Positions 14,493-33,141 of a stretch of 36,276 nucleotides of DNA are shown here, piece after piece. The stretch is from contig JAJFJB010000471.1 of the NCBI GenBank assembly GCA_021774435.1, positions 1 to 36,276 of the forward strand, read 5' to 3'. Position numbers and translations under genes: made by a program. The number at the start of each line of letters is the position of its first letter. The first letter of the stretch is position 1. The stretch is from Alphaproteobacteria bacterium. Its GTDB lineage: Bacteria; Pseudomonadota; Alphaproteobacteria; UBA8366; GCA-2717185. Under the pieces are notes generated by a model. That model made no database searches, had not been told where the DNA came from, and worked only from the letters and a program-made list of their open reading frames with translations.

Positions 14493-15119
14493 TCAGGAGG
14501 CCCAGCGGTGCCGCGCCTTGTACTGTTCGGTGAAGCGCGTGATGTCGGCATCGAATTCCAACGTCAGTCCGATATCGTCGAGGCCATTCAATAGACGATG
14601 TTTGTCGAACGCGTCGATTTCGAACTGGTAGACCGTCTGGTCGGGCCCGGTCAGACTTTGAGTGTCGAGATCGATGGCGATTTCCGCGCCGGGGCTTTCG
14701 CGCAGCTGTTGCCGGAGGGTTTCACAATCTTCCGAGGGTAAACGGATGGGCAGCACACCATTCTTGATGCAGTTGCTGTAGTGGATATCGCCAAAGCTGG
14801 GCGCGATGACGGAGCGGACGTTATTGGCCCGCAGTGCCGTTACCGCGTTCTCTCGCGAAGAACCGCAACCCCAATTGAGATCGGCAACGAAAATCCGGCC
14901 ATTCCGATACGGTTCCCGGTTATAGATGAAATCCTTCTCCGACCCGTCGGGGTTAAATCGGAGATCATGGAGTAGAAATGTTCCGAATTCCGGGTCGTTC
15001 CCCGGCCGCCGGAGAAAGCGGGCCGGAATGATCTGATCGGTGTCGCAGTTGGCAATGTCGATCGGCACGGCGATCGAAGCAAAAGTTTTGAAGGGCTCCA
15101 ACCCATTTGACGCGGCCAT
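14493..15119 (-). CDS. leuD: 3-isopropylmalate dehydratase small subunit (or related hydro-lyase small subunit)
   Basis: A 208-residue swivel-domain protein of the aconitase superfamily. Typical LeuD segments are GLEPFKTFASIAVPIDIANCDTDQIIPARFL, LNWGCGSSRENAVTALRANNVRSVIAPSFGDIHYSNCIKNGVLPI and the C-terminal LTLEFDADITRFTEQYKA. The start ATG 15117-15119 follows GAGGAG, two bases after the leuC stop, so translation is coupled. It pairs with LeuC to form the heterodimer that isomerises 2- and 3-isopropylmalate, or in paralogues a related methyl- or dimethyl-malate. No other leucine gene lies in the window, so the substrate is uncertain. Longer frames running upstream into leuC are artefacts. 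Confidence 0.9.
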   Translation of the reverse strand: MAASNGLEPFKTFASIAVPIDIANCDTDQIIPARFLRRPGNDPEFGTFLLHDLRFNPDGSEKDFIYNREPYRNGRIFVADLNWGCGSSRENAVTALRANNVRSVIAPSFGDIHYSNCIKNGVLPIRLPSEDCETLRQQLRESPGAEIAIDLDTQSLTGPDQTVYQFEIDAFDKHRLLNGLDDIGLTLEFDADITRFTEQYKARHRWAS

Positions 15120-15121
15120 CT

Positions 15122-16525
15122 CTATTTCTCCTCGGCGAGTTTGCGGACATCTGTGAACCGGCCGGTAACGGAAGCTGCGGCGGCCATGGCGGGACTGACA
15201 AGGTGGGTCCGGCTGTCGAGACCTTGGCGACCACGGAAATTGCGGTTGCTTGTTGATGCGGAACGCTCGCCGGGCGCGAGCATGTCGCCGTTCATGGCGG
15301 CGCACATGGAGCAACCGGGCTCGCGCCACTCCATGCCTGCGTCGATGAAAATCCGGTCGAGGCCTTCCGCCTCCGCTTGTTTCTTCACCAGACCGGAGCC
15401 TGGTACGACAAGGGTGCGCACTTGAGCACGGCGGCCCTTGGCGACCGATGCGGCGGCACGCATATCCTCGATCCGGCTGTTGGTGCAGGCACCGATGAAG
15501 ACGGTATCGACGGTGATGTCGGACAGCGGCATGCCTGGCTTCAAATCCATATAGTCGAGGGTCGCTTCCATATCCGCGCGAACCAGCGAGTCGGATTCGG
15601 TAGCGGGATCGGGCACAGTTTCGGTGACGGGCAGCGCCCATTGCGGGCTATTGCCCCAGGTGACCATCGGGGCGAGGGCGTCACCGTCGAGCGTAACTTC
15701 CTTGTCGTAATACGCATCGTCATCGGACGAGAGAGTGCGCCAGTACGCGACGGCCTCATCCCATCGTTTTTCCTTTGGTGCGTATGGACGTCCGGCGCAA
15801 TAGTCGATCGTCTTGTCGTCCGGCGCAATGATACCGGAACGCGCGCCCGCTTCGATACTCATGTTGCAGACGGTCATGCGTCCTTCCATCGACATTGCCT
15901 CGATCGCCGATCCCGCATATTCGATTGAGTATCCCGTGCCGCCGGCGGCACTGATTTCGCGGATGATCGCGAGGATGACATCCTTGCCGCTCACGCCGAA
16001 ACCAAGCCGACCGGTGATATTGATGCGCATCGTTTTCGGTTTCCGTAACCACAGCGACTGAGTCGCCAGGGTATGTTGCACTTCCGTCGAACCGATGCCG
16101 AAAGAAATGCAACCCAAGGCGCCATGCGTTGAGGTATGGGAGTCCCCGCATACGAGGGTAAGTCCCGGCAGCGTGATGCCTTGCTCAGGTCCGACCACGT
16201 GGACGATGCCGTGCCGGTCATCGGTCATTGGGAAATGCGTGAAACCGAATTCTTCGGCCGACTTTTCTAGAACCTCGACCGTTTCCCGCATTTCGCCTTC
16301 CGGAATGTCCTGCAGAACTTTGGCCGTGGTCGGTATGCTGTGGTCGGGTGTGCCGAACAGTTTGTCGGGTTCGCGGATTTCTAATCCCTTGGCCTTCAGC
16401 ATCCCAAAGGCACGGAAATGGAGGTCGTGGATCAAATGCCGGTCGATATAGAGGAGGACGTCGCCATCCTCTCGCGTCGTGATGACGTGCTCGTCCCAGA
16501 TTTTTTCGAATAATGTCTTGGCCAT
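15122..16525 (-). CDS. leuC: 3-isopropylmalate dehydratase large subunit (or related hydro-lyase large subunit)
   Basis: A 467-residue aconitase-family subunit. The [4Fe-4S] cluster ligands are Cys347 (GACTNSR), Cys405 and Cys408 ([10 protein letters not shown]). [34 protein letters not shown] and [29 protein letters not shown] are conserved active-site regions. The N-terminal segment [36 protein letters not shown] departs from the usual LeuC form (HEVTSPQAF ... DHNVST) in a way often seen in secondary paralogues. With no leuA or leuB nearby and a setting of catabolic genes, a role on a leucine-like substrate such as dimethylmalate is possible. It is the first gene of the leuC-leuD pair; its promoter must lie in 16526-16643. 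Confidence 0.9.
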
Positions 16526-16643: not shown

Positions 16644-19600
16644 TCAGTCGTCCAACGTTTTGCGGAGTGTCTTTGCCAAATCCATGTTACGGAACGGTTT
16701 GAGGAGGAGAGTGGCATCTCCGTCCCGTTGGACCGAGGGATTCAGCTTATTCGCTGTATAACCCGACATAAAGATTACCTTTATATTCGGCCGCCGTTCT
16801 TTTACCGATTCCGCCAGTGCCGGGCCACTGATACCCCCGGGCATTACAACGTCGGTGAGAAGAAGGTCGATGGTACCAACCTGTTCGAGAATTTCGAGGG
16901 CGGCTTTGCCGGATTCCGCCGCCGAAACGATATATCCAAGATTGCCTAGGTAATTCGTCACAAGTTCCAGCATCCCAGGATCGTCTTCAACTACTAGGAT
17001 GCTTTCTCCCTTTGCTTTTGGTGTGCTGGGCTCTTCCAAGGGATCGTCCTGTTCGGATTTTTCGACTTGGGGAAGAAAAACCTTAACCATTGTTCCTTTA
17101 CCGACATCGCTTTTGATTTCAACGTGGCCGCCGGACTGTTTAGTGAATCCGAATACCATGCTCAGGCCGAGGCCGGATCCCTCGCCGACTCTCTTTGTGG
17201 TGAAAAACGGATCGAACGCCTGCACTTGGATTTCGGGTGACATACCGGTGCCGGTGTCGGTTACCGCAAGCACGACATAGTCGCCAGGGGATACCTCTGG
17301 CCGCATCGCCACGTAATCTTCATCAAGATGAACCTTATCGGTTTCGATACTGAGCGTTCCGCCGTCCGGCATCGCGTCGCGCGCGTTGACGGCAAGATTG
17401 AGCAGTACGCTCTCGAGCTGCGCTGGGTCGACTTTCGTTGTCGGCATAGAAGAATCAAGATTGGCCCTAATTTCGACCGTCTCACCAAGGGTGCGATGCA
17501 GCATGTCCAGAACGCCCGCAATATGCTGGTTCAAATCGACCACTTTGGGCGACAAGGCTTGTTTGCGCGAGAAGGCGAGAAGTTGCTTATTCAATGTGGC
17601 ACCGCTCAAGGCAGCTTTCATTGCCGGTTCCAACAATGCGGTCAGCTCTTCGTTTTCACGTAACTCTTCGGATAGAAAGTCGAGATTCCCGATAATGACA
17701 CCCAACAAATTATTGAAATCGTGCGCCACGCCGCCTGTTAATTGGCCCACAGCTTCCATCTTTTGAGCTTGAACAAGTTGGCTTTGCAAGTCGTATTGAT
17801 CGGTAACGTCCATATTGACAGTGCCGATCGCGATGCACTCTCCGCCGGGGCCCAATATCGGAAATTTGTGATTTAGGGTTCTACGCGTTACGCCATCGGG
17901 GAAGATCAATTCTCGTTCTTCAACGACCGGTTCTCTTTGTGCAACGACCTGTTGATCATGGGTCTTACTGATCCGAATTTTGTCGGACGGAAAGAAATCA
18001 TCGATGGTTTTGCCGAGCCAATCTTCATCGCTATCGACATTCAGCCATTCACGGAATGTTTTGTTCGCAATTAGATAATGGCCTTCGATATCCTTCAGGT
18101 AGATAGCGGCGGGAGAGTTGTCGACGACCGCTCGGAACCGCGCCTCGCTTTCCTTGACCAAGCGCTCGGCGTGTTTGCGCTCGGAAACGTCATGGGTCAT
18201 GCCGAAGAATCCGCGCACGGCACCATCTTCCGCAATGTCCGGAACATTGGTTATCTCGACATCTCGAGTCGTGCCATCTGGAAACGAGACGTTGGCCTCA
18301 AAGGTGACCTTATTTCCCTTTAATGTTTCTTTGATTTGCGCACGGTACTTTTCATAGCTGTCTCCCTGGAGTTCCATGGGTGACTTGCCGACAAAGGCTT
18401 CCGGTGTCGTGGCATACCATTCGGCGCCCGTCTTGTTGGCCAGGACGTACTGCTCGTTGGCGTTGACATAGGTGATGAGTACAGGCAGCGAGTCTATCAC
18501 GAGGCGCAGCTGTTGCTCGCTTTCGCGCAGTGCCGCTTCCATTTTCTTGCGGTTCGCAATGTCGGTCATGATTGTGCCGACCAGCGAAATGGCGCCCCCG
18601 GTGTTCCTGACAGGGAACTTCGTAACGATGCATTGAATTTGAGTGCCGTCTGGTAGAGATGCAATTCGTTCTTCCGAAATCGTCCTGCCCTCGGTGACGA
18701 CGCGTCTTTCCATTTCCCGGGTCGCCTGGGCGTGCTCCGGCGCCATGTATTCGACCGCGGATTTCCCGACAAGCGTTGCTGCTGGCTGTCCGTGCATTTT
18801 TTCATAGGCACGGTTGACGACCAGGAGTTTGTGATCCAGACCTTTGAGAGAAATTGGTGTTGGGCTGCTGTCGATTACTGAGCGCAGCAGCGCTTCGCTT
18901 TCGCGCAGGGCATCTTCCATTCGTTTCCGTTCGGATATGTCGGTGCTAATTGACCCGATGCCCATTAGCCTCCCGTCGGTGTCATAGGCTGGAAACTTGG
19001 TGACTTCTCGCGGGTGAAAGGTGCCGTCCTTTGCCTTCCAATCTCGTTGGTGGGTAACTACACCGCCATGTTCCATAGCATCTTTGTCATGGTCTTTGAC
19101 GACGGCTGCCTGGTGTGCTGATTCGATATCATCAGGCATTTTTCCGATTAAATCCCGAACGGATAAGTTGCGGGATTTTGCGAACGCCTCGTTGACAAGA
19201 AGGTAGCGTCCGTCGGTGTCTTTCAGGGTTATCCGAGAGTGGTAATTGTCGACAATCGCCCGCAGTTGCGCTTCGCTATTACGCTTTGCCTCTTCAGCCT
19301 TCCTGAGGTTGCTAATGTCCGTCATGATCGTGCCGATCAGCGTAATTTCTCCGTCCGCGTTAACGATTGGGAACTTCGTTGCAACGCTTTGTACTTGTGT
19401 TCCATTCCGGAGGGTCGCAACACGTTCCTTTGAACTCGTCTTGCCGGTTTCGATGACACGGTTTTCTTGCAATTCCGCCACTTTCGTCAGCTTTGGGGTC
19501 ATATAGACAGACGAAGTTCGACCGATGACTTGGTCGGCGGGAACGCCGGTAATTTTTTCGAACGCCTTATTTACGACGACAAAATTGTGATCCAAATCTT

Positions 19601-21998
19601 TGAGTGTAATAGGCGATGGGCTGCTGTCGATGATGGAACGTAGCAACGACTCGCTTTCTCGCAAGGCGTCTTCCGCTTTCTTGCGGTCACTGATATCGGT
19701 AACAATCGTGCCAAGAAGTGTCACTTTCCCCTGCTCATTGGCGATGGGGAATCGCGTGACGATGCTTTCCATAATGTTTCCGTTTGGCAATGTAAGCGAG
19801 CGTTCCTCGGATTGCTTCTTTCCGGTTTCGATTACCTGCCGATCCAAGGCGTGAACACGTTCGGCATGCTCATTATGCAAAAATTCAGTGACGACGTGGC
19901 CGATCAACTGGCCGGAGGTCAGTTGGAATACTTCTTCGAATGCTTGGTTAACGACCAATAGTTTGTGATCCAGGCCCTTGAGCGAAATCGGAGTAGGGCT
20001 GCTGTCAATGACCGAGCGCAGCAAAGCCTCGCTCTCCCGCAACGCATCTTGGGCTCGTTTTCGCTCGGTTATGTCGATGCCGATCGTCCCGATGCCCATC
20101 AACTTGCCATCGGCATCGTAAGTTGGAAACTTGGTGATCGCGACCGGGTAACTTTCGCCGAATTTGTTGACCCAAACGCGCTCATAGGTGATCGGTGCGC
20201 CACCTTCCAGTGCTGCCAGGTCATGCTCCTTGACGACGGCGGCATGCTCTGGTGTTTCTAATTGTTCCGGGGTGACACCAATGCACTCTTCGACCGAAAC
20301 TCGACGCAGTTTCGCGAAGGCGTCGTTGACGAGAAGGAACCGGCCTTCGAGATCCTTTAGGGAAATCAGCGAAGGATAATTGTCGATGATGGCGCGCAAA
20401 TGGGCCTCAGTTTCGCGCTTCGCGTTTTCGGCTACTTTGCGCTCCGTAATATCGACGACGGTTGCTTGAATGGTTTCCTTGTTATCCCACATAATCGTGC
20501 GCGCGGTATTGTCGAGCCAAATCCGCGAACCGTCTTTGCGAATGCCTTGAAACTCATGGCGGTTCGGCGCTTCACCACCTTCAGTGTGCGCTGTTTGGTG
20601 CATTGTTAGTCGCGCAACTTCACCGGTCGCGAACAATGGCGCAATCGATTCCATCGCAAGAATTTCGTCCGGACTGTCATAGCCGAACATGACCGCCCAA
20701 GCTTGATTTACATATATCGGTTTAAAATCTCGGTGGAGGAGGATGCCTTGAACCGATCCTTCGGTCAGGTCTCTGTAGCGGGCTTCGGAGGCTCGTAGAG
20801 CTTCCTCTGTGCGCACTTGTTCGCTTTCGTCAGAGCCGATGGAGCCAATACCGATTAGCGTGCCGTCGGCATCCAAGACGGGAAACTTGGTATAGCGCCG
20901 ATACCAAGATGTGCCGTTCTCGTACTCTACATATCCTTCTCCATGCACAACTTCACCGGTATCAATGACACGGCGATCGGCGGCGAGAATTTTAGCGACA
21001 TCTGCTGTGCTCTCACTTTGCTGATAAGTCTTTCCGATGTAGTCACCATCGCCGCGCTTTTTCTTGAACGCTTCGTTGACCAAAAGATAGCGGCCGTTGA
21101 GATCCTTGAGATTCATGGTCGCGTTGCTGTTATCGATGAAGTTCCGTAGCAGCGTTTCGCTTTCCGCCAGCTTGCGCTCGGCGCGTTTTTGTTCCGTGAT
21201 ATCGATTGCAACAGTCCCTATCGCGGATATCGTGCCCTCGTCCGACTTGACAGGGAATTTAATAAGGATCCTGTCGTGGGTACTGCCATCTTCCTTCCGG
21301 ACTCGAATTTCTTCCTGAATCGAGTCACCGCTCTCGATGACCGACTGTTCCATGGCGGCCATCGCATGGAACCTGTTTTGGTCCTGAAGTAGTTCTGCAG
21401 TGTATTTCCCGACGACATTGTCGACGCTCTTTCCCAACCAATCGGCATGGGATTCATTCACCATCAGATGGCGTCCGTCCGTGTCCTTCAAACTCATGTT
21501 GACCGGTGTGTTTTCAAAGAAAGCCCGGAACCGTTCTTCGCTCTCCCGCAAGGCCCGTTCCGCGGCATCTTTTTCCGCTTCAAGACGGAGACGGTCGAAA
21601 CACCGGTTCAGCACGGCGTCGAGCATGTTTATTTCGACCGGTTTGTAGAGGTACTCCGAGGCTCCATTGCGTAGGGCACGAACGGCGGAGCTTGTGTCAG
21701 CGTGGCCCGTGACCAAAATGCATTGAATGTTCGGCCGCACCTTACGTAACTCGGCAATGAGGTCGACTCCATCCTCCATTCCGAGCCTTAGATCGATGAC
21801 TGCAACGTCGGCAGCGAATTGGCCGGCGCGTTCAATTGCGCTATCGCCGTCGTCTGCAGTTGTCGCGGCATATCCGATATCTCGCAGCGCATCAGCCGTT
21901 GCATCGGCAAGATCACAGTCGTCATCGACAATTACAACACGCCGTAAATTCAGCTGTTCGATGGGGGTTGGAAATGCGTCTAAAGATGCAGTCCTCAT
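16644..21998 (-). CDS. Hybrid histidine kinase with N-terminal receiver, ten PAS/PAC units and C-terminal receiver
   Basis: A soluble 1784-residue signalling protein. Residues 20-135 form a receiver (VVIVDDDCDL, phospho-Asp69 in VIDLRLG, Thr97, Lys119). Residues about 150-1400 hold ten PAS/PAC units, each opening with a variant of LRESExxLRxxID and closing with GTIxxDIxxRKxAE. The kinase core follows: His1426 in GGVAHDFNN, the N-box NLAVNARDAMPDGG, and DTGTGMS with GEGSGLGLSM. A second receiver runs from about 1665 to 1780 (ILVVEDD, Asp1716 in LLTDVVMP). The start at ATG 21996-21998 has AAGGAG nine bases upstream and overlaps the stop of the membrane kinase gene as ATGA. No histidine phosphotransfer domain or output domain is present, so phosphate must pass to a separate protein. 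The signals sensed are unknown. Confidence 0.95.
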   Translation of the reverse strand: MRTASLDAFPTPIEQLNLRRVVIVDDDCDLADATADALRDIGYAATTADDGDSAIERAGQFAADVAVIDLRLGMEDGVDLIAELRKVRPNIQCILVTGHADTSSAVRALRNGASEYLYKPVEINMLDAVLNRCFDRLRLEAEKDAAERALRESEERFRAFFENTPVNMSLKDTDGRHLMVNESHADWLGKSVDNVVGKYTAELLQDQNRFHAMAAMEQSVIESGDSIQEEIRVRKEDGSTHDRILIKFPVKSDEGTISAIGTVAIDITEQKRAERKLAESETLLRNFIDNSNATMNLKDLNGRYLLVNEAFKKKRGDGDYIGKTYQQSESTADVAKILAADRRVIDTGEVVHGEGYVEYENGTSWYRRYTKFPVLDADGTLIGIGSIGSDESEQVRTEEALRASEARYRDLTEGSVQGILLHRDFKPIYVNQAWAVMFGYDSPDEILAMESIAPLFATGEVARLTMHQTAHTEGGEAPNRHEFQGIRKDGSRIWLDNTARTIMWDNKETIQATVVDITERKVAENAKRETEAHLRAIIDNYPSLISLKDLEGRFLLVNDAFAKLRRVSVEECIGVTPEQLETPEHAAVVKEHDLAALEGGAPITYERVWVNKFGESYPVAITKFPTYDADGKLMGIGTIGIDITERKRAQDALRESEALLRSVIDSSPTPISLKGLDHKLLVVNQAFEEVFQLTSGQLIGHVVTEFLHNEHAERVHALDRQVIETGKKQSEERSLTLPNGNIMESIVTRFPIANEQGKVTLLGTIVTDISDRKKAEDALRESESLLRSIIDSSPSPITLKDLDHNFVVVNKAFEKITGVPADQVIGRTSSVYMTPKLTKVAELQENRVIETGKTSSKERVATLRNGTQVQSVATKFPIVNADGEITLIGTIMTDISNLRKAEEAKRNSEAQLRAIVDNYHSRITLKDTDGRYLLVNEAFAKSRNLSVRDLIGKMPDDIESAHQAAVVKDHDKDAMEHGGVVTHQRDWKAKDGTFHPREVTKFPAYDTDGRLMGIGSISTDISERKRMEDALRESEALLRSVIDSSPTPISLKGLDHKLLVVNRAYEKMHGQPAATLVGKSAVEYMAPEHAQATREMERRVVTEGRTISEERIASLPDGTQIQCIVTKFPVRNTGGAISLVGTIMTDIANRKKMEAALRESEQQLRLVIDSLPVLITYVNANEQYVLANKTGAEWYATTPEAFVGKSPMELQGDSYEKYRAQIKETLKGNKVTFEANVSFPDGTTRDVEITNVPDIAEDGAVRGFFGMTHDVSERKHAERLVKESEARFRAVVDNSPAAIYLKDIEGHYLIANKTFREWLNVDSDEDWLGKTIDDFFPSDKIRISKTHDQQVVAQREPVVEERELIFPDGVTRRTLNHKFPILGPGGECIAIGTVNMDVTDQYDLQSQLVQAQKMEAVGQLTGGVAHDFNNLLGVIIGNLDFLSEELRENEELTALLEPAMKAALSGATLNKQLLAFSRKQALSPKVVDLNQHIAGVLDMLHRTLGETVEIRANLDSSMPTTKVDPAQLESVLLNLAVNARDAMPDGGTLSIETDKVHLDEDYVAMRPEVSPGDYVVLAVTDTGTGMSPEIQVQAFDPFFTTKRVGEGSGLGLSMVFGFTKQSGGHVEIKSDVGKGTMVKVFLPQVEKSEQDDPLEEPSTPKAKGESILVVEDDPGMLELVTNYLGNLGYIVSAAESGKAALEILEQVGTIDLLLTDVVMPGGISGPALAESVKERRPNIKVIFMSGYTANKLNPSVQRDGDATLLLKPFRNMDLAKTLRKTLDD
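17800..21550 (-). repeat. Tandem array of ten PAS/PAC-coding units with a three-unit super-period
   Basis: Each unit is about 125 codons. Two unit types can be told apart: one with LRAI(I/V)DNY (units 4 and 7) and one with LRS(V/I)IDSSP (units 5, 6 and 8). Units 5 and 8 share an identical run of about 31 residues, spaced exactly 1134 bases (378 codons) apart. Their DNA differs at roughly one base in five, mostly at silent positions. Confidence 0.85.
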
Positions 21999-24667
21999 TC
22001 GGCTGCACTCCTTGAATTCGAGGGGTATTGCAGGGGAAGGCAAAGAACTGCCTCCGTTCCTAGGTCCGGGTCGCTTTTGATCTTCAAAGTTCCGGCATGG
22101 GCCTCGACAATCTGTTTGACGATTGAAAGCCCGAGTCCAACTCCAAAACTCTTGGTGCTATAGAGCGGCTCAAAAATATGGTCGAGTATGTCGCTCGACA
22201 TACCTGGACCGGTATCGCTGATCGTGATCTCAAGGTCGGTGTGCGTCAGCCGTGAAGCAAGGATTATCGACTTATCCCTATTGCTTGACGTGTCGACCTC
22301 AAGTACCGCGTGACGCGCATTATCGATCAGGTTGGTTATGGCGCGGCGCATTCGTTCCGCATCCAGTGCAAGGACTTGGTTCGGCGCGTTCAGGTCGGTC
22401 GATAGATTTATGCCTGCCGGGACTTCATACTCCGATAGAACGGACTTCAGCCAATCGTCGACCTTGACCAGCGCGAGTTCCGGGGGTCTTGACCGGGCAT
22501 AGTCCAGCATTTCATCGATTATCAAACTGCAGCGTTCGATATTCCGCTCAATGCGGCCGAGGGGCCGTTCGATGTCTATTCCTCTATCACGCACTTTCTT
22601 GGCAAGTGAGAAGACCGATGCGCTTATCGTGCCGAGTGGATTCCTAAGTTCATGGCTCACCGTGGCGCTGAGTTTGCCTAATGTCGCAAGCCGTTCGTTT
22701 CGGACCAGTTCTGCTTGCGCTTCCTCCAGCGCTTTCGTGCGTTCTTCGACACGGCGTTCAAGACTTTCGTTGAGTTGCTCTATTTTCCTTTCGGCTTCGT
22801 GGCGCCCGGTGACGTCTTGAACGGTGCCGAAAGACAAAAGCGGACTACCATCTTTGCCGAAAACGGTTCTGCAGCGTTCCTGGACCCATTTGATGCGCCC
22901 ATCCGGCATTAACAGCCGATGGTCGATGTTGTAGGGCGAGCGGTGGGTCAAAGAATCGCTGTACGCCTTGTTTACGGCTTCCTTGTCTTCAGGATGAATG
23001 GCATTCAAAAACGCTTCATAGGATGCGCCGAATTGTTCCGGGTCGATTGCAAACATGCGATAAATTTCGTCCGACCAAGTCAGCATACCTGTAACGTGGT
23101 TGAGTTCCCAGGAGCCGAGTTTCGCCATCCGCTGCGCCTCGAGGAGAAGATCCTGACTTTTGCGCAGTTCCTCTTCTGCATTCCGCCGTTCCGTAACGTC
23201 GAAATGCCAAAGCATCGTGCAGGTTTGTCCGTTGAAGCGGACCGGGCGCGAATTTATCGAGACCCACCATTCACTGCCATCCGACCGATAGCGCACGCCC
23301 TCGAAGTCGATGAGATCGCGACCGCTGCCGATGATCGCTCTGGCTTCCTCAAGCTTCCTGGGATCGACCCAGCTTTTGTGGATATCCATCTCGTAGAGGG
23401 CGTCCAGCGTGGAATAGCCAAACATTCTGGCCAACGCGTTGTTTGCGAACAGGCGTTTCGTTCTATTGCCGCTCGCTTCCGGAAAATGATCGACAACAGC
23501 GATCCCAATTGGGCTCTTATCCAATATTTCTCGGTTTTGTTCCTCGCTTTCCCGTAGAGCCTCCTCGGCGCGTTTTCGATCGTTGATGTCTTCTATTTGG
23601 GCGACGGCGACAGGGTTCCCGTCTTCATCGGTGGTGCCGACGGATACAGTGACCTGGGCCCAGGAAATAGCACCAGTTCTTGTAAGATATCGTTTTTCAT
23701 GCTGGATAAATGTGCGTTGGAGGCTTGACCATTGGCTCAGAGCGTTGCTCACCTTTTCAAGGTCATCCGGGTGGGTTACATCGCATGGGCCCATCTCAAG
23801 GAGCGTCTTCTCCGGATAACCAATAAATTCTGTGAACGCTTTGTTGACCCGGAGATATTTTCCCTGACTGCTGACCATGGCCATGCCGACGCCGGCATTT
23901 TCGAACAGGCTCCTGTAACTCTGTTCGCTTCGATTAAGCGAACTTGTTGCTTCCTGGACGGCCTCGGAGAGAGTCTCTTTCTCCAGCACGTCGAAGATGG
24001 CGAGCGTTTTATAAATCGTCGCGGTTATGAATATTGCCGAGGTGGTACGGGCAATTTGCACGGGAAAGCCGAAGGCCGCTGCGAAGTCACTTTGGTCGAA
24101 AACAAAAGAGGGCAACCCAACTGCGGTGCTGGTGATCGACGTAAGAAGGCAATAGGAAAGAAAACCGGTCGCTGCTAGTTTTGGCCATATTGTGTTCAAA
24201 CGATCCGATGCGAGTCGGTTGCGGTTTTGGTAAAGCACCAAAGCAGCGCCGAATGATCCTGGTATGCCGATTACATACCGAATAGCAAAGTCTCTTTGCG
24301 GCTGCTCATTTAGGAATATCAGTAAAATTATAAGCAAGCCGACAATGAGCGGCAGTGCAAGCTGGTTCAGAAAGTGGTTTGACGCGGTCCGTTGGTGCAG
24401 CTTGAACGCAAACTTTATGAGTGCACAGTACGAAACCCCTGCAAGAAATGCCGCAGGATATGGGCTCCCCATGAAAACCAGATCTCGGACCGCGGGCAGA
24501 TAACTCCATTCTGTGAGGCCATGCAAAACTCCGAAGAGACCGAGCCAGCGAAAACTTTGTGAAATTTCCTGGTGCCGGATGGGGGTTTGACGCACGAGGA
24601 CGGCGACCCCCATGGCTAGAAAGGCTGATCCATAAATCAAATAGATGAGATCAAGCTCTGTGTTCAT
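21995..24667 (-). CDS. Membrane PAS-domain sensor histidine kinase
   Basis: An 890-residue kinase. The first 220 residues form a multi-helix membrane region of about six or seven segments, including IYGSAFLAMGVAVLV, LALPLIVGLLIILLIFL, IPGSFGAALVLY and LAATGFLSYCLL. Three PAS units follow, opening at SYRSLFENAGVGMAMV, REILDKSPIGIAVV and MAKLGSWELN. A coiled linker (LNESLERRVEERTKALEEAQAEL) leads to the HisKA site, His672 in SATVSHELRNPLG, and then to the ATPase: NLIDNARHAV, DTGPGM and GVGLGLSIVK. ATG 24667 has an AGG six bases upstream. The last four bases overlap the start of the giant hybrid kinase, so the two are translationally coupled. It may phosphorylate the receiver at the N-terminus of that partner. 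Confidence 0.94.
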   Translation of the reverse strand: MNTELDLIYLIYGSAFLAMGVAVLVRQTPIRHQEISQSFRWLGLFGVLHGLTEWSYLPAVRDLVFMGSPYPAAFLAGVSYCALIKFAFKLHQRTASNHFLNQLALPLIVGLLIILLIFLNEQPQRDFAIRYVIGIPGSFGAALVLYQNRNRLASDRLNTIWPKLAATGFLSYCLLTSITSTAVGLPSFVFDQSDFAAAFGFPVQIARTTSAIFITATIYKTLAIFDVLEKETLSEAVQEATSSLNRSEQSYRSLFENAGVGMAMVSSQGKYLRVNKAFTEFIGYPEKTLLEMGPCDVTHPDDLEKVSNALSQWSSLQRTFIQHEKRYLTRTGAISWAQVTVSVGTTDEDGNPVAVAQIEDINDRKRAEEALRESEEQNREILDKSPIGIAVVDHFPEASGNRTKRLFANNALARMFGYSTLDALYEMDIHKSWVDPRKLEEARAIIGSGRDLIDFEGVRYRSDGSEWWVSINSRPVRFNGQTCTMLWHFDVTERRNAEEELRKSQDLLLEAQRMAKLGSWELNHVTGMLTWSDEIYRMFAIDPEQFGASYEAFLNAIHPEDKEAVNKAYSDSLTHRSPYNIDHRLLMPDGRIKWVQERCRTVFGKDGSPLLSFGTVQDVTGRHEAERKIEQLNESLERRVEERTKALEEAQAELVRNERLATLGKLSATVSHELRNPLGTISASVFSLAKKVRDRGIDIERPLGRIERNIERCSLIIDEMLDYARSRPPELALVKVDDWLKSVLSEYEVPAGINLSTDLNAPNQVLALDAERMRRAITNLIDNARHAVLEVDTSSNRDKSIILASRLTHTDLEITISDTGPGMSSDILDHIFEPLYSTKSFGVGLGLSIVKQIVEAHAGTLKIKSDPDLGTEAVLCLPLQYPSNSRSAAE

Positions 24668-25024: not shown

Positions 25025-26896
25025 TCAGCGTCCGAACGCGTATCCCTGAGTTGAGCGTGCCGTTGCAGATGCCTTGAGCAAATTGCCGTCTTGTGCCACT
25101 GCACACATCCGTCCCTGCGCCCAGTTGTCTCCCACGGATACCTCGTGGCCAAGAGTTTTGAGTTCGTCGACCGTTTCATCGGAGAAGCGGCCCTCGACCG
25201 TCAGAGAACGTAGCGCCGCGCGTTTTGGATAGAACGATGCGGGGAAATGCGATGTGTTGAAGGTGGGGGCGTCAGCTGCTTCCTGTAGGTTCTGGCCGTG
25301 ATGAACATGACGCAGGAAAAATTGGAGCGCCCATTGGTCCTGACGATCCGCGCCAGGGGTGCCGAACGCCATGTAAGGTTTGCCGCCACGGTTCGCGAAT
25401 CCGGGGCTCAAGGTCGTGCGTGGCCTTTTCCCAGGGGCGATGCTGCCTGGGGTGCCTTCTTCCAGCGTAAAGATTTGGCCTCGGTTCGACAGGGCAAATC
25501 CGAGTTCTGGGATCGTCGGGGAACTACGCATCCAACCGCCACTGGGCGTGATCGACACCATGTTGCCCTTTCGGTCCGCGACATCGAGATGCACGGTGTC
25601 GCCGGTCGCGATTGATGCGGCAGGGGCTATATCTATGGCCGGTAAGAGCGAGCCATCCTCCTGGACTGACAGGCGTTGGCCATCAGCAAGACCATAGACG
25701 ACGGGGCCGCCGAACCCTTCAATGCTGCCCGGTCGGATTGCATCCGAAGCATTTTCGCTAATTAGGGCGCGGCGCTTTGCGCTGTAATCTTCCGATAGTA
25801 GGGTCTCCATCGGTACATCGACGAAATCCGGATCACCGTAAAATTTTTCGCGGTCGGCGAAAGCGAGCTTGGTGCTCTCGACCACGTGGTGGACGAAATC
25901 CGCGCCGTTGGGGTCCATCGAGGCGAGATCGAAACCGCGAAGCAGTGCTAGTTGCTGCAGGAAGACCGGGCCCTGGCTCCAAGGGCCGCATTTGAAGACG
26001 GTGTAGTCGCCGTAGTCGAGCGAGAGCGGCGCTTCCACGCTGGCAGACCAGCGTGCCAGATCGTCGCCGGACAGGAAGCCGCTGTGGCGCCGGCCGGACG
26101 TGTCGAGAAATTCATTGCCGCGGCAGAAGCTGTCGATGATGTCGGCTACGAATCCGCGATAGAAAGCGTCGCGTGCCGCTTCGATCTGTTTCTCTCGGTC
26201 GCTCCCCGCAGCTTCCGCCTCGCTCAGAATGCGTTCGAACGTGTCTGCAAGCACCGGGTTGGAAAAGAGTTGGTTTGGCTTGGGGACATTGCCGTTCGGA
26301 CAATAGACAGCGGCGGAACTTGGCCAGTGTTCGACGAAGAGATTCTTTAGCGCGTCAATTGTCGCCACAACGCGGGCCGCGATGGGGTACCCGTTGCGGG
26401 CGTGGCCGATAGCGGGCTCAAGGACGTCGCGCACCCGCATCGTGCCCCAGTCGCGCAACAGCAGCATGAAGGCGTCGAACGCGCCCGGCACGACCAAGGG
26501 CAGCAAACCCGCGCCCGGTACGATATCGAGGTCGAGATTGCGGTAGGCTCCGACGGTTGCTTTGCCCGGCGCAACGCCTTGGCCGCAGATGACCGACACC
26601 TTTCGCGTCTTGCCGTCGCACAGGATAATCGGCGCGTCCCCGGCAGGGCCCGCCATGGAGGGCTCGACGACTTGCAGCGTGAAGGCTGTGGCGATAGCGG
26701 CGTCGAAAGCGTTGCCGCCCTTTTCGAGAAGGGACATGCCAGCGGCGGTGCCGAACCAATGGGTCGAGGCCACCATACCAAACGTTCCCGTAAGCTCAGG
26801 TCGCGTCGTAAAGGGCGGTTCTCCCGGCAGGCGCTTAGCGGGCGGCGTAGCGCTGCCGCGAAAGAGGTGTTCGATTTCCTGAGCGGTTAGAGTCAT
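25025..26896 (-). CDS. ggt: Gamma-glutamyltransferase family protein
   Basis: A 623-residue Ntn-hydrolase of the gamma-glutamyltransferase family, which hydrolyses or transfers gamma-glutamyl groups of amides such as glutathione. The precursor should cut itself before Thr434 in TGDTVHLDVADRKGNMVS, giving large and small subunits. The segment matches the E. coli TTHYSVVD nucleophile site, except that the second Thr is Val435. GGNAFDAAIATAFTLQVVEPSMAG and PSGGWMRSSPTIPELGF are other conserved blocks. There is no signal peptide, so it is probably cytosolic, unlike classic periplasmic forms. ATG 26896 has TAGGA upstream. A remnant glutamine-synthetase-type tail ends 49 bases before it, and the gmaS-mgs genes lie further upstream on the same strand, so gamma-glutamyl amides made by such ligases are plausible substrates. 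Confidence 0.93.
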   Translation of the reverse strand: MTLTAQEIEHLFRGSATPPAKRLPGEPPFTTRPELTGTFGMVASTHWFGTAAGMSLLEKGGNAFDAAIATAFTLQVVEPSMAGPAGDAPIILCDGKTRKVSVICGQGVAPGKATVGAYRNLDLDIVPGAGLLPLVVPGAFDAFMLLLRDWGTMRVRDVLEPAIGHARNGYPIAARVVATIDALKNLFVEHWPSSAAVYCPNGNVPKPNQLFSNPVLADTFERILSEAEAAGSDREKQIEAARDAFYRGFVADIIDSFCRGNEFLDTSGRRHSGFLSGDDLARWSASVEAPLSLDYGDYTVFKCGPWSQGPVFLQQLALLRGFDLASMDPNGADFVHHVVESTKLAFADREKFYGDPDFVDVPMETLLSEDYSAKRRALISENASDAIRPGSIEGFGGPVVYGLADGQRLSVQEDGSLLPAIDIAPAASIATGDTVHLDVADRKGNMVSITPSGGWMRSSPTIPELGFALSNRGQIFTLEEGTPGSIAPGKRPRTTLSPGFANRGGKPYMAFGTPGADRQDQWALQFFLRHVHHGQNLQEAADAPTFNTSHFPASFYPKRAALRSLTVEGRFSDETVDELKTLGHEVSVGDNWAQGRMCAVAQDGNLLKASATARSTQGYAFGR

Positions 26897-26945
26897 ATCG
26901 TCCTACCGTGTTGGGCGCGAGCGCGTTAGTTTCGCGAGCCTTGCC

Positions 26946-27056
26946 TCAGCTGTCCAGTGTGTTAGTGCGCTTCCAGCCACCGTGTTGGCGCGAATAGTCG
27001 TTCCCTTCGCCGCTCATGATTCCCGCATAGGACGAGACGAATTTGTCGCCAAAATC
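26946..27056 (-). pseudogene. Remnant C-terminal tail of a glutamine-synthetase-family gene
   Basis: Read on the minus strand, 27056 to 26946 encodes about 36 residues ending GNDYSRQHGGWKRTNTLDS and a TGA stop. This aligns without gaps to the tail of the intact gmaS-like protein nearby (WNDYSRHQSNWELTHTLDT), with 16 of 34 residues identical by my count. The 19 bases TGGCGCGAATAGTCGTTCC occur in both copies. The frame is closed upstream by TAA at 27057-27059, and no start codon gives a useful gene. It is therefore the 3' stump of a lost second ligase gene that once stood just before the gamma-glutamyltransferase gene. The level of divergence argues against a recent copy of gmaS. Confidence 0.75.
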
Positions 27057-27064
27057 TTATTGCC

Positions 27065-27082
27065 ATCGGCGTTTGCGCCGAT
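27065..27082 (-). terminator. Candidate terminator hairpin after the LytS-type kinase gene
   Basis: ATCGGCG and CGCCGAT pair perfectly around a TTTG/CAAA loop, eight bases past the kinase stop. The downstream side has only a short interrupted T run, so intrinsic termination is possible but weak. Confidence 0.4.
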
Positions 27083-27089
27083 ATCCGTT

Positions 27090-28793
27090 TTATTCAACGT
27101 GAATTGTCCGCTCCGGTGGGAAGTGAAGGGTAACCTTGGTCCCCTGGCCGATTTCGCTTTCGATATTCAAGCAGCCGCCATGCAACTCCATAAGCGAATT
27201 GCAAATCGACAGTCCGAGACCGGTTCCATCATGGTTGCGTATGTGGCTGTCAGCGACCTGTCCGAATGGCTTCATCACCTTGGGAATTTCCTCGGCGGCA
27301 ATACCAATGCCTGTGTCGGTGACACTGATTTCCTGGCCGCCGGATTCATCCAACCGTGTGTTGACGGACACGCGGCCACCCGGCGACGTGAATTTCAGTG
27401 CATTGGAAAGCAAGTTCAGCATGATCTGCTTGAACTGGCGCTCGTCGGCGCGAAGAAATGAACATTTTTCCGCCCCGAAAAACCGCACATCAATGCGTTT
27501 GGCCTCTATACGCAATCTTGCCATCGAAATGGTGTCGTTTATCGCCTTGCTGAGATCTACCTTGCTATCTTCCACCGTCGCCTCGCCGGCTTCGATTTTG
27601 GAGATGTCGAGTATGTAGGTGATAAGTCCGAGTAGGTGTTTGCCGGACGCTTGAATCGCCGCCGCGTATTCCGAATAACGTGGATTGTTGTGCGGGCCGA
27701 AGACCTCATCCTTGATCGCTTCGGAATACCCGAGGATTGAATTGAGCGGCGTCCGCAATTCGTGGCTCATGTTGGCCAGGAACTCTGATTTTGCCCGGTT
27801 GGCAAGTTCCGCATGCTCCTTGGCGACAAGCAAACTCGCCTTGGTCTCGGCCTCTGCCGTGACGTCGGACCCCGTACCCCGGTAGCCTTGAAAAGAACCG
27901 TCGGGGGCGTACACGGGCTTGCCGCTAATACGAAAATGTCCGATGCCGCCGTCGGGCGCGACCAGGGTGTAGTAGAAATCCCGGAAGGGGAGGCGCTTCG
28001 TCAAGACCTCGATGTGCGTGTGCCATGTTTCGTCTTTGGGCCCTACGTGTGCAAACTCGTCCCGAGTCTTGCCAATGACGTCGTCGACCTCGAACGGAAA
28101 CAGCTGGAAGAAGCGGGGCGAAAGAAAGGTAAAGCGCAGCTTGGAATCCGTTTCCCAAATCCAGTCGCCCGACACCTCTGCCACGTCGCGAAAACGCGCC
28201 TCACTTTCAGTGAGTGACTTGCCTGTCTGGATTTGTAGTTCGATTGCGTGCAGCAGAGACCCAAGAAGGGCAGTGGCGGGCGTAAACGTCACGACGAGGG
28301 GTAGTGCAATGTTGTCCATGACCGTCCCCACCACGGTGTCTGGCAAGAAAGTGAACAGAAGAATTTCGACCAAATGAACCAGGAGCCCGAACGCCAGTAG
28401 CTGCCATACGCCAATTCTCAGCCAGCCGCGTTGGTAAGCATGACGATAGACAAGCCCGAGAAGCACGCAAGAGATGACGACGGAAACGCCGACCGGCGCG
28501 CCGCCTCCGCCAAGCCAAACGCGGTAGCCGCCCGCGATAACAGCGGCGATGCCGCCAACAATCGGACCGCCAAACAGCCCGGCCATGCTCAATACAACGG
28601 AGCGGGCGTCGAAGATCACGCCGGGTGCCGCTTCTATCGGCGTCTCCATGCCGATGACGCATATTCCACCAAACAGAACGCCCGATAAAATTCGGCCGAC
28701 AAGCTCTCCGCTTGACCACCGCCTCGCAATGAAGCCTTGAACCAAGCACAACGCCAATAAAAGGGCGACAGCCTTGGTAAATTCAATGACCAT
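27090..28793 (-). CDS. Sensor histidine kinase with 5TM-LYT membrane domain and PAS domain
   Basis: A 567-residue membrane kinase. Residues 1-190 form a LytS-type 5TMR domain; FDARSVVLSMAGLFGGPIVGGIAAVIAGGYRVWLGG is its signature, usually linked to sensing small molecules or envelope state. A PAS/PAC unit covers about 195-315, then His344 in FLANMSHELRTPLNSILGYSEAI, an N-box in MLNLLSNALKFTSPGG, and DTGIGI with GTGLGLSICNSLMELHGG. The C-terminus lacks a receiver. ATG 28793 has no clear ribosome site. The 114 bases in front of it are strikingly AT-rich and probably hold its own promoter. It lies directly downstream of the gmaS-mgs genes on the same strand, so control of or response to methylated amines is an inference from position. 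No response regulator gene is adjacent. Confidence 0.92.
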   Translation of the reverse strand: MVIEFTKAVALLLALCLVQGFIARRWSSGELVGRILSGVLFGGICVIGMETPIEAAPGVIFDARSVVLSMAGLFGGPIVGGIAAVIAGGYRVWLGGGGAPVGVSVVISCVLLGLVYRHAYQRGWLRIGVWQLLAFGLLVHLVEILLFTFLPDTVVGTVMDNIALPLVVTFTPATALLGSLLHAIELQIQTGKSLTESEARFRDVAEVSGDWIWETDSKLRFTFLSPRFFQLFPFEVDDVIGKTRDEFAHVGPKDETWHTHIEVLTKRLPFRDFYYTLVAPDGGIGHFRISGKPVYAPDGSFQGYRGTGSDVTAEAETKASLLVAKEHAELANRAKSEFLANMSHELRTPLNSILGYSEAIKDEVFGPHNNPRYSEYAAAIQASGKHLLGLITYILDISKIEAGEATVEDSKVDLSKAINDTISMARLRIEAKRIDVRFFGAEKCSFLRADERQFKQIMLNLLSNALKFTSPGGRVSVNTRLDESGGQEISVTDTGIGIAAEEIPKVMKPFGQVADSHIRNHDGTGLGLSICNSLMELHGGCLNIESEIGQGTKVTLHFPPERTIHVE

Positions 28794-28907
28794 TCAATAA
28801 TTCTAAAGTATGGTTATTATCGTGGTATTAAAATAAATACTGAAATTATTACCTTGTCTTTAATATTTTGTACCAGACGTTACTTTGACGTGTCTAATAT
28901 ATTGCTA

Positions 28908-30212
28908 TCACGTGTCCAGCGTGTGGGTCAGTTCCCAGTTACTCTGGTGGCGCGAATAGTCGTTCCACTCATCGGTTTTGATCTTTACATAGGCTGAGGT
29001 GAATTCCGCGCCCAACGCTTGTTTAAACACTCTGCTACGGCCGAGCGCGCGGATCGCGTCGATCAGGTAAAGCGGTAGTAACCTGGCCCGGGCCTTATGG
29101 CCGTCCGCGTACATGTCCAAATCCGAACGTTTGCCGGGATCGCGTTTGTTCTCAATGCCGTCCAATCCGGCCGCGAGATAAGCCGCTTGCATGATGTAGG
29201 GGTTGGCGGCGCCGTCGGCGAGGCGAAACTCGAACCGGCCGTCGTCGGGGGTGCGCACCATGTGCGTGCGGTTGTTGCCGGACCATGTCACCGCATTTGG
29301 CGACCAGGTCGCGCCGGAATTCGTGACCGGAGCATTGATCCGCTTATAGCTATTTACCGTTGGATTCGTCATGGCGCAGAGCGCTTCGGCATGATGCAGC
29401 ACACCGCCGAGAAACAGATGCGCTAGCGCGGAAAGGCCGAGTTCGTCTTTCTTGTCGTGGAAGAGGTTCTTCTTCCCGGTTTTGTCCCAGACCGAAATAT
29501 GGATATGACAGCCATTGCCGGTCAGATGGAGAAACGGTTTCGGCATGAAGGTCGCGCGCAGGCCGTGGTTCTCGGCAATCGACTTCACCATGAATTTGAA
29601 GAAGGCGTGCCTGTCGGCGGTTACCAAGGCGTCGTCATAATCCCAGTTCATTTCAAATTGGCCGTTGGCGTCTTCGTGATCATTTTGGTAAGGGCCCCAG
29701 CCGAGCGTCTGCATGGCATCGCAGATTTCCGCGATGACTTCGTAGCGGCGCATTAAGGCGGACTGGTCGTAACAAGGTTTGGGATCGATATCGCGCGGAT
29801 CGGAGATGTCGGTGCCTTCGGGATCGATGAGATGATATTCGGCCTCGACCCCTGTTTTCATCCGGTAACCTTGCTTGGCGGCGGCGGCGATCATGCGCTT
29901 GAGGACGACACGCGGCGCCTGCTCGACGCTGGCGCCGTTCATCACGAGGTCGCCAGCGACCCAAGCCACTTCGGGCTTCCAGGGCAGTTGCATGACGCTC
30001 GTCGTGTCCGGTACGGCAAACATATCGGGGTGGGCGGGGGTCATATCGAGATAGGCGGCAAAGCCGGCGAAACCGGCACCGTCCTTTTCCATGCCGGCAG
30101 CGGCGGATGCAGGCACGAGCTTGGACCGCTGCACACCTTTCAGATCGGTAAAGTTGAACAGAAAATATTTAACGCTGTTCTTCTTGGCAAAGGCTTCCAG
30201 CTTGCTGGCCAT
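28908..30212 (-). CDS. gmaS: Type III glutamine synthetase family ligase, gamma-glutamylmethylamide synthetase-like
   Basis: A 434-residue ligase of the GlnT/GmaS branch, which joins glutamate to ammonia or methylamine with ATP. The active-site blocks are KTGVEAEYHLIDPEG (ExE metal site), QNDHEDANGQFEMNWDYDDAL, GNGCHIHISVW and the arginine-rich NNRTHMVRTPDDGRFEFRLAD. The N-terminal FNFTDLKGVQRSKLVP and the run FAAYLDMTPAHPDMFAVPDTTSVMQLPWKPEVAW match GmaS/GlnT proteins rather than biosynthetic GlnA. GGGGAG precedes ATG 30212. It follows mgsC by 20 bases, and the full mgsA-mgsB-mgsC-gmaS order matches the indirect methylamine oxidation gene set. Rhizobial glnT-glxBCD clusters are close relatives, so ammonia as substrate cannot be excluded. 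Confidence 0.88.
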   Translation of the reverse strand: MASKLEAFAKKNSVKYFLFNFTDLKGVQRSKLVPASAAAGMEKDGAGFAGFAAYLDMTPAHPDMFAVPDTTSVMQLPWKPEVAWVAGDLVMNGASVEQAPRVVLKRMIAAAAKQGYRMKTGVEAEYHLIDPEGTDISDPRDIDPKPCYDQSALMRRYEVIAEICDAMQTLGWGPYQNDHEDANGQFEMNWDYDDALVTADRHAFFKFMVKSIAENHGLRATFMPKPFLHLTGNGCHIHISVWDKTGKKNLFHDKKDELGLSALAHLFLGGVLHHAEALCAMTNPTVNSYKRINAPVTNSGATWSPNAVTWSGNNRTHMVRTPDDGRFEFRLADGAANPYIMQAAYLAAGLDGIENKRDPGKRSDLDMYADGHKARARLLPLYLIDAIRALGRSRVFKQALGAEFTSAYVKIKTDEWNDYSRHQSNWELTHTLDT

Positions 30213-30232: not shown

Positions 30233-31540
30233 TCAGTTTTTGCCTGGAATCCAGTCAGTGCCCGCGAGCGGTACCTGTGCCATGGCGGCGGCTTCAACGG
30301 TCAATGCAACCATGTCCTCAGGCTCGAGATTGTGCACATGCGATTTGCCGCAGGCTCGTGCCAGGGTCTGGCACTCCATCGTCAATGTCGAGAGGTAGTT
30401 CTGCAACCGGCGTGCGCCTGCTTCGGGATCGAGCCGTTTCTCTAGTTCCGGATCTTGCGTGGTGATGCCGACCGGGCAGCGCCCCGTATGACACATATGA
30501 CAGGACCCCGGTGCGGTACCGAGTGCGGCGTAATCTTCTTTGTAAATCGGCGCGTTGCAGTTCAGGGCCATAAGGGAAGCCATACCGATCGACACGGCAT
30601 CGGCACCCAGCGCCAACGCTTTGGCGACATCGGCACCAGTGCGGATACCGCCGGAAACGATGAGCTGTACCTTGCGATGCATATCCATTTCGCGCAACGC
30701 GTCGACCGCGAGCCGGACTGCCGGCAGGGTTGGGATGCCGACATCTTCGATGAACACGTCCTGGGTCGCCGCGGTGCCGCCCTGCATGCCGTCGACAACG
30801 ACTGCATCCGCGCCGGCCTTGACCGATAGCATGACGTCATATCGCGTGCGGGTCGCGCCGACCTTCACATAGATCGGCTTTTCCCAATTGGTAATCTCGC
30901 GCAGTTCGCGGATCTTGATTTCCAGATCGTCCGGTCCGGTCCAGTCGGGGTGGCGGCAGGCACTGCGCTGATCGATTCCGGTTGGCAGCGTGCGCATGCC
31001 GGCGACACGGTCGGTGATTTTTTGGCCCAGCAGCATGCCGCCACCGCCGGGTTTCGCGCCTTGTCCCACGACGACTTCAATCGCATCGGCCTGACGCAGT
31101 TGATCGGGCGTCATGCCGTATCGCGACGGCAAATTTTGATAGACCATGGTCTTTGAACTTTCCCGTTCCTCCGGCGTCATGCCACCATCGCCCGTGGTCG
31201 TGCTGGTGCCCATGGCCGTTGCGGCGAGACCGATGGCCTTTTTGGCATTCGCGCCGAGCGCGCCGAAACTCATCCCAGCAATCGTGATGGGGATATCGAG
31301 CTCGATCGGCTTGGACGCATGGCGCGCGCCGATCGTGACGTTGGTGTCGCAGCGCTCGCGGTAGCCTTCCAACGGATAGCGTGACATGGAAGCGCCAAGA
31401 AAGACGAGGTCGTCGAAGTTCGGTACGTGGCGCTTCGCGCCGCCGCCGCGAATTTCGTAGATACCTTCCCGGGCCGCACGGTGGATTTCCGAGATCACGC
31501 GCGGCGGGTAGGTGGCGGAGGTTTGATATTTGTCGCTCAT
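30233..31540 (-). CDS. mgsC: Glutamate synthase-like FMN subunit of N-methylglutamate synthase
   Basis: A 435-residue TIM-barrel protein homologous to the FMN domain of glutamate synthase. SFGALGANAKKAIGLAATAMGTSTTTGDGGM and PIYVKVGATRTRYDVMLSVKAGADAVVVDGMQGGTAATQ form the flavin and 2-oxoglutarate site. GGIRTGADVAKALALGADAVSIGM is the phosphate-binding end. CHMCHTGRCPVG carries the three cysteines of a [3Fe-4S] cluster as in GltB. The start ATG 31538-31540 follows AAGGAA and lies 13 bases after the mgsB stop; a longer frame to 31639 overlaps mgsB and is rejected. With MgsA and MgsB it should make N-methylglutamate from methylamine and glutamate. The equivalent Rhizobium protein is GlxD. Confidence 0.88.
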   Translation of the reverse strand: MSDKYQTSATYPPRVISEIHRAAREGIYEIRGGGAKRHVPNFDDLVFLGASMSRYPLEGYRERCDTNVTIGARHASKPIELDIPITIAGMSFGALGANAKKAIGLAATAMGTSTTTGDGGMTPEERESSKTMVYQNLPSRYGMTPDQLRQADAIEVVVGQGAKPGGGGMLLGQKITDRVAGMRTLPTGIDQRSACRHPDWTGPDDLEIKIRELREITNWEKPIYVKVGATRTRYDVMLSVKAGADAVVVDGMQGGTAATQDVFIEDVGIPTLPAVRLAVDALREMDMHRKVQLIVSGGIRTGADVAKALALGADAVSIGMASLMALNCNAPIYKEDYAALGTAPGSCHMCHTGRCPVGITTQDPELEKRLDPEAGARRLQNYLSTLTMECQTLARACGKSHVHNLEPEDMVALTVEAAAMAQVPLAGTDWIPGKN

Positions 31541-31553
31541 GCCATTCCTTCGC

Positions 31554-32237
31554 CTAATAGCTGCCGGCGTTGTCAATTTTGAAATTATAGAGCTGCCGCG
31601 CGGATCCGTAGCGACGGAAGTCACCGGCATTGGCGTCAACGCCTGCCTGTTTCAGAAGTGATTCCACATCGGACCGGTGCTCGGACCGCATATCTTTTTC
31701 TACGCAATCCGCGCCCAAGCTCGCGACCGTGCCGCGGACGTAGATCTGCGCTTCGTATAGAGAATCGCCGAGATCGGCGCCGACGTCACCGAGGACGACG
31801 AGCCGGCCCGCCTGCGCCATGAAAGCGGCCATATGGCCAACCGACCCTTGCACGACGATATCCGCACCCTTGAGCGAGATCGCGCAGCGCGCGCTGGCGT
31901 CGCCTTCGACAACCAGCAAACCGCCATGCGCGGTCGCGCCGGCCGACTGGCTGACATCGCCCCGGACACGCACCAAGCCGGACATCATGTTCTCCGCGAC
32001 ACCGGTCCCGGCGTTGCCATTTATCGTGACCTTGGCTTCCTGATTCATGCCGGCGCAGTAATAGCCCGCATGGCCTTCAATCGTCACTTCGATGGGATGC
32101 ATCAGCCCGGCAGCCAGGGCGTGCGCGCCGCCTGGATGGAGGACGCGGAATTCGGACTCCCCGTCATCGCCATCGCGCCTTTGGAGGCGCCGATTGAGGT
32201 CGCGTACCGCGACGCTGCTCAAGTCGATTGTCTGCAT
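31554..32237 (-). CDS. mgsB: GXGXG-domain subunit of N-methylglutamate synthase
   Basis: A 227-residue protein corresponding to the C-terminal beta-helix (GXGXG) domain of glutamate synthase. Repeating turns such as VTIEGHAGYYCAGMN, VTINGNAGTGVAENMMSG, VRVRGDVSQSAGATAHGG, IVVQGSVGHMAAFMAQAG and LVVLGDVGADLGDSLY are visible. In glutamate synthase this domain plays a structural, channel-holding role. ATG 32235-32237 begins four bases after the mgsA stop; GGGGA lies a little far upstream, so coupling to mgsA translation is likely. The open frame upstream to 32348 overlaps mgsA and is not real. It corresponds to rhizobial GlxC. Confidence 0.87.
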   Translation of the reverse strand: MQTIDLSSVAVRDLNRRLQRRDGDDGESEFRVLHPGGAHALAAGLMHPIEVTIEGHAGYYCAGMNQEAKVTINGNAGTGVAENMMSGLVRVRGDVSQSAGATAHGGLLVVEGDASARCAISLKGADIVVQGSVGHMAAFMAQAGRLVVLGDVGADLGDSLYEAQIYVRGTVASLGADCVEKDMRSEHRSDVESLLKQAGVDANAGDFRRYGSARQLYNFKIDNAGSY

Positions 32238-32241
32238 GGTT

Positions 32242-33141
32242 TTACGCTTGTCCCCAACTGTAGACGGTTGCCGGTTCCGGTTCCCATACCGTCGCACCGT
32301 CCACGCCAGGAAGCTGCGCGAGGGCGCGGAATTCGGACGCCATCGCAACCCAATCGTCGGTTTCAGCCATCACGGCGGGTTTGCAGGCAATTGGATCGCG
32401 CAGGACCGAAAAGCCTTCCCGTGTGCCAACGGCGAAAGTATAGAATCCATCCAGGTCGGCAATCGCAGCCTCCAGCGCCTCGGCAATCGTCGCGCCTTGC
32501 CCCAAGCGCCACGTCAGGTAACCGGCGGCGACTTCGCTGTCATTATCGGTTTGAAATGTGATGTTGGCATGATCGCGCAGCCAGTCGCGCAGGCGGTGGT
32601 GATTGGAGAGCGATCCGTTGTGGACCAGGCACAAATCGTCGCCGGTGTTGAAGGGATGCGCGCCCTCCGTTGTGACGGCGCTTTCCGTTGCCATGCGGGT
32701 GTGCCCGATGGCGTGGCTACCGGTGATCTGTGGTACGCCGAACCGCGAAAGAACGTCGGCCGGGAGGCCGACCTCCTTGTATATCTCGAGGCTGTTGCCG
32801 GAACTCATGATCCGCAGCCCTGGCCGGTTCGTTTCGATCCAGCGCCGCAACGTGGCCGCATCGGCGACAGCGCGCAAAATGGCATGGCTCGAAATCCGCT
32901 CGGCGGTGACCGGTATCTTAAGATCGCTTGCAGCGTCCGAGGCGACAGCATCCCAGTCAAATTCGGGGACGGGATCATAGAGCGTTACCTTGGCGCCCGG
33001 GGGCTCCCCGTCGCGGTAGATCGCGACACCGGCACTATCAGGGCCACGATCGGTCATTTGTTCGAGCATCGGTGAAAAATAAGCGCCCAACTGGACGCGA
33101 AATTCAGGGTTCTTGAGATAGAGGCCGACAATGCCACACAT
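32242..33141 (-). CDS. mgsA: Class II glutamine amidotransferase subunit of N-methylglutamate synthase
   Basis: A 299-residue Ntn-type glutaminase domain. The protein begins MCGIVGLYL, so Cys2 becomes the N-terminal nucleophile after Met removal. AIGHTRMATESAVTTEGAHPFNTGDDLCLVHNGSLSNHHRLR contains the glutamine-binding and oxyanion residues of class II amidotransferases. It corresponds to the amidotransferase part of GltB and to rhizobial GlxB. It is the first gene of the mgsA-mgsB-mgsC-gmaS set, so the operon promoter should lie in 33142-33328. ATG 33141 has only a weak GGA upstream. It lacks the flavin domain, which is supplied by MgsC. Confidence 0.88.
   Translation of the reverse strand: MCGIVGLYLKNPEFRVQLGAYFSPMLEQMTDRGPDSAGVAIYRDGEPPGAKVTLYDPVPEFDWDAVASDAASDLKIPVTAERISSHAILRAVADAATLRRWIETNRPGLRIMSSGNSLEIYKEVGLPADVLSRFGVPQITGSHAIGHTRMATESAVTTEGAHPFNTGDDLCLVHNGSLSNHHRLRDWLRDHANITFQTDNDSEVAAGYLTWRLGQGATIAEALEAAIADLDGFYTFAVGTREGFSVLRDPIACKPAVMAETDDWVAMASEFRALAQLPGVDGATVWEPEPATVYSWGQA

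Follow-up and report, generated by a model that had tools for sequence, protein, structure and literature searches.

The segment at positions 26946 to 27056 on the minus strand of the window (the whole 36,276-nucleotide stretch analysed here) is, by its reading frame and homology matches, a decayed copy of the final 35 codons and the stop codon of gmaS. It very probably derives from the 3' end of gmaS itself, as a partial duplicate or the displaced native end, left behind as a sensor kinase gene came between gmaS and the gamma-glutamyltransferase gene ggt. On this reading, the stump is an ordinary insertion scar rather than what is left of a second, lost enzyme. Its minus-strand translation comprises 36 residues (DFGDKFVSSYAGIMSGEGNDYSRQHGGWKRTNTLDS) and ends in TGA; an in-frame TAA lies directly before it and no gene leads into it. 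An earlier note on this DNA gave the coordinates and strand correctly, and its description of a 36-residue tail that matches the end of a gmaS-like protein and has no gene in front of it is borne out.

In its own genome, the stump had a sole significant non-self match, to the intact ligase, whose tail aligned at 28911-29012 (16 of 34 residues identical, 47%, E 3.9e-5), and no other match was better than E 0.4. The longest exact run common to both tails is 19 bases, GGAACGACTATTCGCGCCA. In a search against 11 genomes of the family, all matches at E<=0.01 were gmaS tails of the same genus, which agrees with the earlier reading of the segment as a glutamine-synthetase-type tail. The best protein match was found in G003 (57% identity, E 4.0e-8). 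At the DNA level, the gmaS end of G003 matched the stump at 74% over 105 nt (E 2.9e-12), the best match in any genome searched, compared with about 68% for the gmaS end of the window. The closest relative of the stump is a gmaS end of the same genus, and the stump lies where relatives have the end of gmaS. The similarity to the gmaS tail, as far as these comparisons of sequence go, is not due to chance. The earlier note had proposed a translated or profile search; the family genomes returned gmaS tails, and a Pfam search with the 36-mer alone returned no match, an uninformative result for a tail this short.

The intact ligase (28908..30212, minus strand), the predicted source of the stump, is a gmaS-type gene for a predicted gamma-glutamylmethylamide synthetase. 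It scored 657.7 bits against TIGR03105, the type III/GmaS family model (cut-off 469.6), and its closest solved structure is 7CQL, GmaS of Rhodovulum sp. 12E13 (PMC7948447). The catalytic residues of GmaS are Asp177, Glu186, Arg312 and Trp300, of which Trp300 stands where the Glu flap otherwise has its glutamate (PMC7948447). The intact ligase keeps all four when aligned to 7CQL, whose chain numbering is offset by 20. Directly upstream, on the same strand, domains and operon order identify an mgsC-like gene with a Glu_synthase domain (30233..31639), an mgsB-like gene with a GXGXG domain (31554..32348), whose listed start is probably too far upstream, and an mgsA-like gene for a class II glutamine amidotransferase (32242..33141). 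The mgsABC-gmaS order is common to relatives, including other families of the order, and has been described for Methylobacterium extorquens DM4 (PMC6237917). The window resembles the mgsABC-gmaS operons known from the N-methylglutamate pathway (PMC6237917, PMC7948447) in its intact gene, catalytic residues and operon order, whereas the stump differs from known gmaS genes in holding only the last 35 codons, decayed and without a start. By family model, nearest structure, catalytic residues and operon, the intact ligase is a GmaS, with methylamine as its predicted substrate. A soxB-type gene, of the family that includes an N-methylglutamate dehydrogenase subunit, lies elsewhere in the same genome (contig C225).

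Comparison of gene order, also proposed in the earlier note, placed an intact ligase directly before ggt in two related loci, L035 (the same contig as G003:C22) and L036; this ligase is gmaS itself. Both loci have the order mgsA-mgsB-mgsC-gmaS-ggt, with leuC and leuD farther on and no kinase gene between gmaS and ggt, and their gmaS and ggt are respectively 89% and 88% identical to those of the window. The claim that a ligase once preceded ggt is therefore upheld, but not its loss, since gmaS is still intact in the window and merely separated from ggt (25025..26896, minus strand). The latter encodes a gamma-glutamyltranspeptidase family protein and, judging from the relatives, was formerly the immediate downstream neighbour of gmaS. 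A single base separates the gmaS stop from the ggt ATG in L035 (TGA-T-ATG) and L036 (TGA-A-ATG), which suggests translational coupling of the maker of gamma-glutamylmethylamide to a gamma-glutamyl hydrolase or transferase. The pair occupies L035:4695-7869 and L036:2501-5678, and none of the relatives outside the group formed by the window, L035 and L036 showed this adjacency; in placing ggt directly after gmaS, this small group differs from known mgsABC-gmaS operons. In G001, ggt is near leuCD without gmaS before it, and gmaS is at a contig end; in G002, gmaS is followed by another gene; and in more distant relatives, mgsABC-gmaS is followed by various genes.

Two further observations concern the other side of ggt. 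The genes leuC and leuD (14493-16525) are found near it in an order that L035, L036 and G001 also have, whether or not gmaS is adjacent. Between ggt and leuC (16644-24667), the window encodes two large PAS-rich sensor kinases, one of 1799 aa, which has two receiver domains besides many PAS domains, and one of 890 aa, whereas L036 has one related 904-aa gene and L035 none. This differing kinase content indicates that the spot between ggt and leuC gains and loses signalling genes.

The sensor kinase gene between gmaS and the stump (27090..28793, minus strand) is, from this comparison of gene order, a newcomer at the site in the lineage of the window, since it is absent between gmaS and ggt in L035 and L036; the earlier note had likewise assumed a later arrival. 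No ortholog was found in the genomes of the genus. The encoded protein combines 5TM-5TMR_LYT, PAS, HisKA and HATPase_c domains. Its receiver is LytS-like (5TMR_LYT, PF07694, E 5e-29). LytS-class kinases carry a kinase domain of the His_kinase family; the catalytic part here is HisKA and HATPase_c with PAS, and the newcomer resembles LytS in the receiver alone. Its nearest relative, from another genome of the family (G007), is 69% identical over the first 313 residues and 37% thereafter. From this drop, the sensor and kinase halves appear to have different histories, in what looks like a domain swap.

Upstream of the kinase gene, a 114-bp AT-rich leader (28794..28907), part of the newcomer stretch, has 25% G+C against 57% for the window, and no significant match to it was found elsewhere in the genus. 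A perfect 7-bp hairpin (27065..27082), terminator-like on the plus strand, follows the kinase stop. A structured RNA in the intergenic stretch was considered and rejected (fold z-score -0.85, no Rfam match). A mobile element was also rejected, as the search for terminal repeats yielded nothing but the gmaS end and the AT-rich leader is not repeated in the genus. Neither an integrase nor a transposase was seen between gmaS and ggt, nor any target-site repeat besides the gmaS end.

The relatives, in which gmaS and ggt almost overlap, display the ancestral order mgsA-mgsB-mgsC-gmaS-ggt, and comparison with them shows that the sensor kinase gene and its AT-rich leader came between gmaS and ggt in the lineage of the window. 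The event would have produced two gmaS ends, one completing the intact gene and the other, truncated at its 5' side, lying beside ggt and decaying since. One of several possible routes to this layout, in which an insert separates the intact gene from a copy of its end that lacks the 5' part, would be a single crossover that joined gmaS to a circular or duplicated molecule with a gmaS end on it; partial tandem duplication with a later insertion would give the same layout. The same three elements, with the truncated end copy at the far side, are found in the 3'-fragment scars of DNA entry at a gene end. The window differs from these in having no integrase, transposase or terminal repeats, and the route is read from the layout alone. 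If the gmaS of the window had an imported end, divergence should jump near its 3' terminus, and no clear jump was seen. The stump has no start, and no function need be supposed for it.

Counting against a relic of gmaS is the 49-nt spacer from the stump stop to the ggt start (26897..26945, minus strand; 1 nt in relatives), which requires an extra event. Its similarity to other sequences is weak and ambiguous in a shuffle test (42/2000 for the L035 tail and 3/2000 for the stump). Given this weak likeness to the gmaS end or to the middle of the stump, the spacer may have arisen by one more small duplication or may still hold part of the native gmaS end. Around the ggt start, a piece of 45 nt aligns with G003 at 82%. 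The AGGA motif a few bases before the ggt ATG may be a ribosome site of its own, and ggt has probably lost its former tight coupling to gmaS and now uses its own leader.

The decay of the stump was examined by comparing its bases with five intact gmaS copies of the genus, in which 63 bases are invariant in all five. The stump has changed at 15 of these, namely 6/26 first, 6/27 second and 3/10 third codon positions, and 11 of the 15 changes are transitions. Over the whole gene, the intact copies differ among themselves by 5 to 9% at first and second positions and by 45 to 49% at fourfold sites. Because its changes fall evenly on the three codon positions at these invariant bases, the stump is, on this small sample, best described as evolving at an unconstrained rate at all codon positions, free of purifying selection. 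A low protein identity is what would be expected of an old gmaS copy under such decay, and the earlier argument that low identity speaks against a copy of gmaS does not hold. The stump has accumulated about 30 substitutions with no indel and no stop, and simulated random decay gives a stop in about 64% of cases; this is a mild sign that a spell under selection is possible.

The branching of the stump was approached through individual sites and tree placement. Seven sites are private to the gmaS of the window, the four other intact copies of the genus agreeing against it; here the stump keeps the ancestral base five times and shares the base of the window twice. Of three changes private to L035, the stump carries two. 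Maximum-likelihood topology tests, based on 35 codons only, favoured placements with the window, L035 and L036, several of which remained, and placements outside this group, and with them a deeper origin, cost about 8 log units without being formally rejected (AU 0.07 and 0.11). The 35-codon tree is compatible with the stump branching before or after the split of the window, L035 and L036.

The earlier note had proposed a second ligase, lost before ggt. A full tandem in-paralog (gmaS1-gmaS2-ggt), of which all but the end disappeared upon arrival of the kinase, would account for the stump at its native position before ggt and for its slightly greater likeness to the L035 tail (20/35 residues identical) than to the gmaS of the window (16/35). 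However, the ligase before ggt in the relatives is the single gmaS of the same mgsABC-gmaS operon, none of the genus genomes carries a second gmaS-type gene close to the first, and a partial copy is already sufficient for the data, so we consider a full second gene improbable. An origin from the end of an unrelated glutamine synthetase or ligase type, which the 47% identity to the intact gene might suggest, is still far harder to sustain. All significant matches in the family were gmaS orthologs of the genus, the own genome offered nothing better than E 0.4, the stump retains genus-specific bases, and another type of glutamine synthetase was rejected as the source for want of a match in the own genome or the family.

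The fragmented assembly of this genome, with 6.3% estimated contamination, also raises the question of an artefact or of a chance resemblance. This explanation is highly unlikely. An assembly duplicate would be near-identical rather than about 68% similar at the DNA level, the flanking sequence on either side is collinear with that of two relatives, and a chance resemblance is countered by the genome-wide E of 2.9e-12 with a relative.

As a relic of the gmaS end, the stump by itself carries little weight as a scar; it records the separation of gmaS and ggt and illustrates that the low identity of a short relic, the product of mere unconstrained decay, can be misread as a different gene. It is conceivable, if rather doubtful, that gmaS and ggt in the single tight operon of this small clade formed a make-and-break pair for gamma-glutamylmethylamide, which the kinase insertion uncoupled so that ggt came to answer to its own signals. 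A literature search retrieved no paper that connects gmaS to a gamma-glutamyltransferase gene in the use of methylamine. The tight gmaS-ggt arrangement in close relatives points to a possible hydrolysis of gamma-glutamylmethylamide that is worth testing.
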